DNA of 64,000 nucleotides from Pseudomonadales bacterium (GTDB lineage Bacteria > Pseudomonadota > Gammaproteobacteria > Pseudomonadales > Azotimanducaceae): positions 1 to 64,000 of the forward strand of contig JADHNI010000005.1 of the NCBI GenBank assembly GCA_016779585.1. Reading direction: 5' to 3'. The notes beneath the pieces were generated by a model. That model did no database searches, was not told the DNA's origin, and worked only from the letters and a program-made list of their open reading frames with translations. Shown here in pieces: positions 1 through 64,000 of this stretch; the stretch's first letter is position 1, and every line of letters begins with the position of its first letter. A program made the translations under genes and the position numbers.

Positions 1-1542
1 ATGACCTTTGCCAAACCTTATGCTAACGAAGCCCCCGATGACATTGCCATTCGCGATGACCACACAGCACTCACCTGGGCGGAAGTTGATGATCAGCTAA
101 ATCGATGTGGTAGTGGTCTGCAGGCGATGGACCTGGGCCCCGAGACCCGGATTGCAGTGTTTGCCGAAAACGCGGTGGAAACGGCACTGGCTAACCTGGG
201 AGGCCTGATTGCCGGAGCCTCAGTGGTACCGGTGAATTTCCACCTGACCGCCGAGGAAGTGAACTACATTCTCTGTGATTCCGGTGCACGCGTCCTGTTC
301 GTCGGTCCCGAAACCTATGATCGCGGTATTGAGGCGGCGAAAGGTTCGGATGTGCATACCGTTATTGGCTGGGGTGCGCCTGCTGATGCGGACCTCACAC
401 CCTGGGCAGACTGGCTTGCTGGAAACGACCCCGCCGGCCCCGACCAGAGTGTTCCACCGAGACCAAACCTGCTTTATACCTCGGGTACGACAGGCAGACC
501 GAAGGGTACTGACCTGCCGCCCACCATGTTTGCCGGTGGTGATACGGTGGATGAGCACCTGGCCAACTTCAAGGCGGGTGTGCTTGAGCGTACCGGGGGC
601 CAGATTGGAACCCAGCTGGTGGTTGGCCCTATGTATCACACAGGCCCGTTGTCAGGAACGAGGCAGCTGATCGCAGGCATGAAATCGGTCATCCTGGGAC
701 GGTTCAGTGCGGAAAACACGCTTGCTGCGATTGAAAAGTACAAAGTCAGCAACACCATCATGGTGCCAACACACTTCGTGCGCCTGCTGGCATTGCCGGA
801 AGATGTGAAGGCGCAGTATGACGTGTCTTCTATTGTTTCTATCAGCCACACCGGCGCGAAATGCCCGGTGGACGTGAAGCGCGCCATGATCGAATGGTTT
901 GGCCCGGTCTTCATTGATGCCTACGGCGCCAGCGAAGTGGGCACAACCTGCATGATCACCTCGGAAGAGTGGCTCAAGTACCCGGGCTCTGTCGGTAAGG
1001 CAGTGCCGCCGTTCACCGCAAAGATCCTGGACGATGACAACAATGAAGTGCCGCCGAATACAGAAGGTCGCCTCTTTTTTGAGGATGAGACTGGCCGCGG
1101 CGTGATTTACCACAATGATCCTGAGAAGTCGGCGGCGGCCCACATAGCCCCCGGGGTGTTCACCCTGGGCGAAATCGCCTACATGAATGAAGAAGGCTAT
1201 GTCTTTATCACAGACCGCTTCAGTGACATGGTGGTCTCCGGTGGCGTGAACATCTATCCGGCGGAAGCCGAGCAGGTGCTGATTGATCATCCTGCGGTGC
1301 TGGATGTGGCCTGTATTGGTGTGCCGAACAAGGATATGGGTGAAGAGCTGAAGGCGCTCGTCATTCCCCATGACGATGCGGATCACCCGTCACCCGACGA
1401 ACTGATTGCCTGGTGTCGTGAACGGTTGTCCCATTACAAGTGTCCACGCACACTGGACTATGTAGATGACCTTGGACGCAATACAATGGGGAAAATTAAC
1501 AAGCGAAAGTTGCGCGCACCTTACTGGGAAAACGCCAGCTAA
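1..1542 (+). CDS. AMP-dependent acyl-CoA synthetase/ligase
   Basis: This is a class I adenylate-forming enzyme of about 513 residues that should activate a carboxylic acid with ATP and load it on CoA. The ATP-binding P-loop LLYTSGTTGRPKGT lies at residues 157-170. The late ITDRFSDMVVSGGVNIYP motif is present, and the C-terminal GKINKRKLR segment carries the lysine expected for the adenylation step. The ATG is the first base of the window, so an upstream start cannot be excluded, although the N-terminus looks natural for the family. The acid substrate cannot be predicted. The stop is followed after nine bases, in the same frame, by a tiny RiPP-precursor-like gene, which suggests co-transcription. 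Confidence 0.9.
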   Translation: MTFAKPYANEAPDDIAIRDDHTALTWAEVDDQLNRCGSGLQAMDLGPETRIAVFAENAVETALANLGGLIAGASVVPVNFHLTAEEVNYILCDSGARVLFVGPETYDRGIEAAKGSDVHTVIGWGAPADADLTPWADWLAGNDPAGPDQSVPPRPNLLYTSGTTGRPKGTDLPPTMFAGGDTVDEHLANFKAGVLERTGGQIGTQLVVGPMYHTGPLSGTRQLIAGMKSVILGRFSAENTLAAIEKYKVSNTIMVPTHFVRLLALPEDVKAQYDVSSIVSISHTGAKCPVDVKRAMIEWFGPVFIDAYGASEVGTTCMITSEEWLKYPGSVGKAVPPFTAKILDDDNNEVPPNTEGRLFFEDETGRGVIYHNDPEKSAAAHIAPGVFTLGEIAYMNEEGYVFITDRFSDMVVSGGVNIYPAEAEQVLIDHPAVLDVACIGVPNKDMGEELKALVIPHDDADHPSPDELIAWCRERLSHYKCPRTLDYVDDLGRNTMGKINKRKLRAPYWENAS

Positions 1543-1551
1543 TCAGGAAGG

Positions 1552-1716
1552 ATGGATAGGTCTGTCGATAACCAATCAAAAAAGAGCAAAAGATCTTACC
1601 GGAAACCACAGCTCCGTAAACATGGCCGTATAGCACGCATCACGGCAAGTGGCAGCGGCGCAATGCAGGAAATGGGTGGCATGATGGGGATGATGGCGGC
1701 CACACGATTCTCATGA
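1552..1716 (+). CDS. RiPP precursor with lasso-type leader, copy 1 (54 aa)
   Basis: This 54-residue product shows the full lasso-peptide leader pattern Y-x-x-P-x-L-x-x-x-G-x-I-x-x-I-T at residues 16-31 (Y16, P19, L21, G25, I27, T31). In lasso precursors the conserved Thr is the penultimate leader residue. Cutting after A32 would give a 22-residue core starting S33-G-S-G and placing E40 at core position 8, the usual ring-closing acid position (7 to 9). The core is rich in Met and Gly and ends TRFS. The AGGAAGG sequence directly abuts the ATG, an unusually short spacing, so translation may be coupled to the acyl-CoA synthetase. Its stop overlaps the start of copy 2 (ATGA). No lasso cyclase, RRE or leader protease is in the window, so the matured product is inference. 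Confidence 0.72.
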   Translation: MDRSVDNQSKKSKRSYRKPQLRKHGRIARITASGSGAMQEMGGMMGMMAATRFS

Positions 1717-1883
1717 AAATCGAAATCAACGACAAAACCCTGGGGAAAACTGGCAAGAGAAATTACCGGAAGCCCGGGCTGCGCAAACACGGGCGAATTT
1801 CCCGTATTACTGCCAGTGGCAGTGGTGCCATGCTGGAGATGGGTGGCATGATGATGGGCGGGGATCCAACCCGTTTTTCCTGA
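1713..1883 (+). CDS. RiPP precursor with lasso-type leader, copy 2 (56 aa)
   Basis: This 56-residue paralogue of the preceding gene starts in a 4-base ATGA overlap with it. The leader motif occupies residues 18-33 (Y18, P21, L23, G27, I29, T33). A cut after A34 gives a core beginning S35-G-S-G with E42 at core position 8, then a Met/Gly stretch and an identical TRFS end. The N-terminal 15 or so residues differ from copy 1, while the leader motif and core start are nearly identical. Over 30 aligned codons the two copies differ by 16 silent and only 3 amino-acid-changing codons. That pattern shows the peptide, not just the DNA, has been conserved. NCBI would probably label such proteins lasso RiPP family leader peptide-containing. 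The ring chemistry is inferred. Confidence 0.72.
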   Translation: MKIEINDKTLGKTGKRNYRKPGLRKHGRISRITASGSGAMLEMGGMMMGGDPTRFS

Positions 1884-62501: not shown

Positions 62502-64000
62502 TTGCAGGCACAAAATGACCTGTACAATGCCAGGCGTTCGGATGGCACTCACTATGACTACCTCTTTATAGGCTCGGGTAATGCCGCATTTTTATAGGCT
62601 CGGGTAATGCCGCATTGACCTGCGCGTCTCTGCTTGCGAGCAAAGGCTACCGTATTTGCATGCTTGAAGCTCACGATCTGCCCGGTGGCTATGCACATAC
62701 CTTCAAGATGGGTGGGTACCACTTCTATGCCCAGGTTCACTATATCTGGGGTTGTGGCGAAGGTGGCCGCATTTACGAGTTCCTGAAACACATCGGGCTT
62801 GACGAAGAGATTACTTTTGAGCTGTTCGACCCGGACGGTTATGACCACATGATCATGCCGGATGGGAAACGGGTCACCATCCCCTATGGCTGGGATGCGC
62901 TGCAGGAAAACATAGCGTCAGCTTATCCGGAATCCACCGGGCTCGACCGGTTTTTCGATCTCGTGAAGTCGCTTCGTGAAGAGATGGCGCGTCTGCCAAG
63001 GAAGATTCGCTGGTGGGACGTTGCACTTAAAGGCTGGTTGTTCTACCCGAACCTGATGCGGTTCCGGCACGCAACGGTGCAGGATTTGTTTGATCACTGC
63101 GATGTCTCCGTTGAAGCCCGGACAGTGCTGACAGCACAGGCGGGAGATTTGTTGCTCCCACGAGAGAGATTGTCATGCCTTTTTTACATCGGGCTTCTGG
63201 GTGGTTATGGTTCTGGTGCCTACGCGCCCAGTGAATTTTTTAAAGGGTATATCGATCGACTGGTAGCTTTTATTCAATCGCGTGGCGGCGATCTTTACCT
63301 GGAAGAGAAGGTTACTGCGATTAGCTCGAGCGGTAGAACCATAAACGGCGTCACTACCATCAGCGGCAAGACTTTCAGCGCTGACCACTATATCTGCAAT
63401 ATGGATCCCCAGGCTGCGGCGCACATGATCGGCTGGGATAAGTTCAAGCCATCAGAGCAGAAGCTCCTACAGTATGAATATTCCGACAATGGCATCGTGG
63501 TTTACCTTGGACTCAAACCAGGCTTCACCCCTGGAAACTACGACATCGGAAATTACAATACCTGGCACTGCCTGGACTGGGATATGAATGAGATGTGGCG
63601 GGCCTGTGACCGTCTTGATCTTGAGCGCGGCTGGTTCTTCCTCTCCACACCGACCCTGCACAGCGCCGCCAGTGGCATGGCGCCGGAAGGCTGTCACACC
63701 CTGGAGATCGCCACCTACCTTCCTTACCAGCCGTTCAGGGAAGCCGCGGACCAGAGTTATGCGGAGTACCATGCACTGAAGATGCAGCTGGCAGATCGGC
63801 TGATCGATCTGGTAGTTAAACACCACATTCCTGACCTGCGGGATCACATCGCAGTGAAAGTCGTGGGCTCTCCTGTTACCAGTGAAGACTTTTGTCATGC
63901 GCCATTCGGCAACGCTTACGGCAGCGCCATGACACCCAAAAACACAACAACACGGCTCGGCGCCGAAACCAGCTTTTCAAACCTCAGCTGGTGTAATGCG
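62502..64000 (+). pseudogene. CrtI-like FAD oxidoreductase interrupted by a 26-bp duplication, 3' end beyond window
   Basis: YDYLFIGSGNAAL is the FAD-binding loop of carotenoid/retinol dehydrogenase-type enzymes, and the frame then runs open to the window edge with LEAHDLPGGYAHTFKMGGYHF and ICNMDPQAAAHMIG. A 26-base tandem duplication at 62565-62616 breaks it: read through, the frame reaches TAG within the second copy. Removing one copy restores a continuous protein of over 490 residues. No ATG is found in frame; a TTG at 62502 is one candidate start. It may be a fresh mutation, a repeat-switch or an assembly slip. Confidence 0.8.
62565..62616 (+). repeat. 26-bp exact tandem duplication
   Basis: The segment TTTATAGGCTCGGGTAATGC plus six more bases occurs at 62565-62590 and again, identically, at 62591-62616. 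Because 26 is not a multiple of three, it shifts the FAD oxidoreductase frame and brings in a TAG stop. Confidence 0.95.

Follow-up and report, generated by a model that had tools for sequence, protein, structure and literature searches.

The accepted features of a lasso-peptide core are an Asp or Glu at positions 7-9 and a first residue that is Gly, Ala, Ser or Cys. The closest described counterparts of the peptides considered here are the split B1/B2 lasso systems of paeninodin, SyanA and BsfA, in which a YxxPxL leader precedes a core with a ring acid (Asp-8 in BsfA) and the B1, B2 and C proteins are accompanied by an HprK-like kinase. The kinases of such systems have different targets: BsfK phosphorylates core Ser-3 (PMC10368454), and PadeK phosphorylates the C-terminal Ser (PMC9266682). 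Pseudomycoidin adds the combination of the PsmK kinase with PsmN, a nucleotidyltransferase homologue and putative NTP_transf_5 protein.

The window analysed here is a stretch of 64,000 nt from a Pseudomonadales bacterium (genome G000; G014 is a sister species). It carries two tiny ORFs that share the YxxPxL leader and the ring acid with paeninodin, SyanA and BsfA, and relatives of the window's species encode B1, B2, C and an HprK-like kinase as those systems do. Unlike them, the window's peptides have Met-rich S/G-G-S-G cores and Thr at -2 (Ile in BsfA), the precursors are unlinked from the machinery, the machinery of relatives includes an extra PRMT-fold methyltransferase, and no machinery was detected in G000. 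The G014 cluster resembles that of pseudomycoidin in having both a kinase and an NTP_transf_5 protein, but it is proteobacterial, its precursors lie elsewhere, and NTP_transf_5 survives in G000 as a mere pseudogene remnant. The best explanation, to which we give a probability of roughly three in four (0.77), is that the pair are genuine lasso-peptide precursors, presumably processed in trans in relatives and orphaned here by deletion of the machinery.

The tandem pair and its surroundings

An initial annotation of the window had described two tiny tandem ORFs at 1552-1883, each with a lasso-type leader and a Glu at core position 8, and both are present as given:

1..1542, + strand: acyl-CoA ligase gene directly upstream of ORF 1; context, not lasso machinery
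1552..1716, + strand: putative lasso precursor ORF 1, 54 aa, 9 nt downstream of the acyl-CoA ligase stop codon
1597..1644, + strand: recognition motif in the ORF 1 leader, YRKPQLRKHGRIARIT, T at -2; Y-P-L-G-T invariant in nine homologues
1648..1713, + strand: ORF 1 predicted core SGSGAMQEMGGMMGMMAATRFS; Glu-8 codon 1669-1671
1713..1883, + strand: putative lasso precursor ORF 2, 56 aa, with its start codon overlapping the stop of ORF 1 (ATGA)
1764..1811, + strand: recognition motif in the ORF 2 leader, YRKPGLRKHGRISRIT, T at -2
1815..1880, + strand: ORF 2 predicted core SGSGAMLEMGGMMMGGDPTRFS; Glu-8 codon 1836-1838

An ATGA stop/start overlap is an arrangement typical of translational coupling, and the ligase and the precursor pair are probably co-transcribed; a promoter and terminator scan found nothing. 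Common to both products are YRKPxLRKHGRIxRITA, which fits the leader pattern YxxPxLxxxGxxxxxTx with Thr at -2, then SGSGAM[Q/L]E, with Ser as the first core residue and Glu at position 8, and a C-terminal TRFS. Met makes up 23-27% of the cores. The Ser start had been taken as a departure from the usual lasso core; the residue is indeed Ser, but Ser at this position has already been reported for lasso peptides (PMC6856326). In the comparison with lasso-leader profiles proposed at the outset, ORF 1 scored 17.4 bits against NCBIfam lasso_leader_L3 (NF033521), just under the curated cut-off of 19, and ORF 2, which was not listed for NF033521, gave weak lasso matches only.

Chance ORFs were considered and ruled out, both by the expected frequency of the motif and by the pattern of substitution. 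The leader pattern Y..P.[LIV]...G.....T occurs twice in the six-frame translation of the window; order-1 Markov sequence gives an expectation of 0.128 per 64 kb, with 3 of 250 replicates reaching two; the stricter Y..P.[LIV]...G.[ILV]..[ILV]T also occurs twice, against none in 150 replicates. The two ORFs are 65% identical, with pS at 0.76 (synonymous sites saturated) and pN at 0.24, and are, judged by this divergence, ancient duplicates. Compared with the second copy of G014, the window copies give pN of 0.26-0.33 with pS saturated or nearly so; the neighbouring ligase in the same comparison gives a pN of 0.046. Saturated synonymous change beside limited nonsynonymous change indicates that both ORFs are translated genes kept under purifying selection.

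The acyl-CoA ligase also lies upstream of the pair in G014. In three other genomes (G004, G011 and G012) an MFS gene comes straight after the ligase, with no precursors between, and among the genomes that could be inspected the pair is therefore confined to the G000/G014 lineage. The window begins where its contig begins, and its first 64 bases are overlapped identically by contig C110, which carries a lipoamide dehydrogenase, the same neighbour as in G014, and no lasso genes. Machinery lying just upstream of the window is excluded by this 64-bp join.

Two tandem repeats were also seen in the window. An 18-bp unit present in 5.7 copies, TCGCTAAAGGCTTTCTGC, occupies 1920-2022, after the precursors and ahead of the MFS gene; at this place G014 has a 160-aa ORF without a Pfam match (L012:9967-10449). 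A 26-bp unit in two perfect copies (TTTATAGGCTCGGGTAATGCCGCATT) lies at 62565-62616.

Homologues and lasso machinery in relatives

A search of 58 related genomes recovered homologues in four other congeners and in one other genus of the family. In a profile search of 207 family genomes, 12 gave matches with an E-value of 0.01 or lower; those in G028, G081 and G185 are weak and look like chance. The convincing homologues are spread over congeners and other genera of the family. At class level, outside the family, a single weak match appeared, in G453, where the linked lasso-type precursor is of a different core type; no plasmid or viral homologues were found. An independent alignment of nine sequences shows no variation at Y, P, L, G, T or Glu-8, as the initial annotation had asked of a genuine pair. 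A broader table of 19 precursors, two of them from Erythrobacter, was selected with the leader pattern, so that leader conservation there is partly built in; in it the core acid falls at position 8 in 18 precursors and at position 9 in one, and the cores begin with Gly, Ser or Ala. All Met-rich precursors of the genus, and that of G024, have Ser or Thr at core position 3; G017 and the Asp-8 subfamily do not. In one G005 precursor (GGSNMRTME..., contig C109, L064:1489-1680) no acid occurs before core position 9, and its adjoining cyclase is otherwise similar.

A cyclase-type Asn synthase adjoins every convincing homologue (G001, G004, G005, G010, G011, G014:C19, G017 and G024) except the pairs of G000 and of G014 contig C17. 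The suggested search of relatives for asparagine-synthetase-like, transglutaminase-like and RRE genes was productive: they carry the cyclase, the B2 protease and the RRE protein (B1), along with an HprK-like kinase and a PRMT-fold methyltransferase. On G014 contig C11 these form an apparent operon of an acetolactate-synthase-like TPP enzyme, B1 (PqqD/RRE, 65 bits), B2 (Transglut_core3, 71 bits), methyltransferase, kinase, cyclase (Asn_synthase plus GATase_7) and an NTP_transf_5 protein. The B2 protein reaches 79 bits against lasso B2 family NF033537 (cut-off 33), the cyclase matches lasso cyclase NF033535 at E 3e-90 and the HprK-related kinase is found at E 3.6e-12. The cyclase and B1 score below the NCBIfam cut-offs (exception-type), and B1 resembles the solved lasso RREs 9x90 and 5v1u.

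No precursor was found near this C11 cluster. The G014 pair syntenic with the window lies on another contig, C17 (JAEPOO010000002.1, from a Pseudomonadales MAG), and since the only other G014 precursor adjoins a second cyclase on C19, the C17 pair presumably depends on the C11 cluster acting in trans. Other relatives show further layouts. In G024, B2, methyltransferase, kinase, cyclase and precursor all fall within about 7 kb. In G001 and G005, the kinase, B1 and cyclase (in G005 also the methyltransferase) accompany two precursors elsewhere in the genome; B2 has remained at the TPP-enzyme site, with a truncated methyltransferase after it. Such split clusters, with B2 apart from the cyclase locus and then a truncated methyltransferase remnant, were seen in three genomes:

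L034:9368-10125, L031:1307-2064 and L028:2628-3145 (G001, G005 and G004): B2 with methyltransferase remnant

The methyltransferase is clearly of the PRMT fold (PRMT2, E 4.7e-34) and keeps the THW loop and the second Glu of the double-E loop; the first Glu is replaced by Val. This Glu is presumably relevant to Arg methylation, which as the job of the enzyme is weakened by the replacement and is not safe to assume. A PRMT-fold methyltransferase lies at L026:9183-10322, with homologues in L013, L015, L030, L033, L075 and L078; in these proteobacterial lasso clusters THW is mostly kept and the first double-E Glu is not.

A more distant counterpart of the window pair is found in the alphaproteobacterium Erythrobacter colymbi. 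Its stand-alone ORF (L069:9968-10141) has the junction ITASGSGAMVE, and no lasso genes were found within 10 kb; lasso clusters lie elsewhere in the genome, one of which includes a kinase and a methyltransferase of the same types. The ITASGSGAMxE junction and the position apart from lasso clusters are as in the window; the retained machinery and the longer tail are not. The ORF is likely, though not certainly, homologous to the pair, to judge from one short match (E 6e-6).

Proposed maturation and loss of the machinery

By homology, maturation in relatives would begin with binding of the leader YxxPxLxxxGxxxxxT by B1 and cleavage by B2 after Thr-Ala, the predicted site. The cyclase would then link the amino group of Ser-1 to Glu-8, closing a ring of eight residues with a 14-residue Met-rich tail. 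The HprK-like kinase probably phosphorylates the precursor at core position 3 (Ser/Thr) or at the C-terminal Ser; the window's cores contain both Ser-3 and the C-terminal Ser, the targets of BsfK and PadeK, so either site is possible. The PRMT-fold methyltransferase may add a further mark. In the G000/G014 lineage the precursors, sitting behind the acyl-CoA ligase and apart from the machinery, would be matured in trans, and in the window's species the machinery cluster would then have been deleted. The precursors, orphaned in this way, are most likely not matured any more.

The sequence of the ancestral machinery site supports such a deletion. Profile and protein searches of G000 found no Transglut_core3 (B2), no PqqD (B1/RRE) and no cyclase homologue; the single Asn_synthase match was assigned, by reading the sequences, to QueC, beside a QueE-like radical SAM protein. 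No gene detected in the window's species accounts for any of the maturation steps. The site lies on contig C7, away from contig ends, with its flanks kept (acyl-CoA dehydrogenase 95% and ROK kinase 74% identical). Between them are only a nucleotidyltransferase fragment and a PspC-like gene; ALS, B1, B2, methyltransferase, kinase and cyclase are absent, and the machinery site spans 217 nt against 6836 nt in G014. The fragment is a remnant of NTP_transf_5 (aa 155-357, 56% identical) with an internal TAG, one stop in 203 codons. On the sequence evidence, this site is the deletion scar of the machinery cluster, and we infer complete loss of the machinery from the species. Similar erosion recurs in the group: in G012 the TPP enzyme and a nucleotidyltransferase stub remain, and in G009 the TPP enzyme and B2.

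The main uncertainty is the completeness of the G000 assembly (94.6%). A cluster relocated as in G001 and G005, where most of the machinery moved and B2 stayed, could lie in the roughly 5% missing from the assembly, and the pathway would then be complete and active, with the precursors matured in trans. Intact precursors with a history of purifying selection would agree with this. We consider it unlikely nonetheless: the ancestral site is deleted down to a pseudogene remnant, B1, B2 and the cyclase are all missing rather than one of them, and relatives with a relocated cluster have precursors beside the cyclase, which the window's pair is not.

The intact, motif-perfect state of both precursors would also fit continued use. 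There is a slim chance that the pair still functions without machinery of its own, as unmodified Met-rich peptides or after maturation by an unrelated or borrowed enzyme; lasso-type precursors would then have gained a role outside lasso biosynthesis. Retention for a job that never involves the machinery, whether as Met-rich peptides binding a metal or regulator or as substrates of another unlinked enzyme, is more doubtful still. The Met content and the survival of both copies after the machinery had gone speak for it, but the conserved motif is exactly what lasso maturation needs, and intactness is also expected if the loss was recent, as the lone stop in the remnant would suggest. The initial proposal of a new RiPP class, with a lasso leader borrowed for other modification enzymes, draws on Ser-1, the Met-rich cores and the missing lasso machinery of G000, and is rejected as barely credible, for the homologues adjoin lasso cyclases in relatives that have lasso B1 and B2, the acid at position 8 is conserved, and G000 has no PqqD-type RRE whatever.

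Implications for lasso-peptide mining

The peptides belong to a known kind, lasso precursors, of which the unlinked layout and the survival of precursors after loss of the machinery are a variant. As far as the searchable literature goes, no description was found of Met-rich S/G-G-S-G cores or a PRMT-fold methyltransferase in lasso peptides; no account of this variant, and no relevant paper on orphan lasso precursors or PRMT-like enzymes in lasso clusters, was found either, most subscription journals being out of reach.

Genome mining for lasso peptides usually takes as its starting point clusters that hold precursor and enzymes side by side. In the cases described here, one species keeps its precursors well away from the machinery, another retains them after the machinery has gone, and a comparable stand-alone precursor is present in an alphaproteobacterium. 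Such precursors would be missed by cluster-centred mining, and precursor-centred mining would predict products that cannot be made. Within the genus there is a natural series, from the linked cluster through the split cluster with B2 elsewhere and precursors apart from the full machinery to loss of the machinery.
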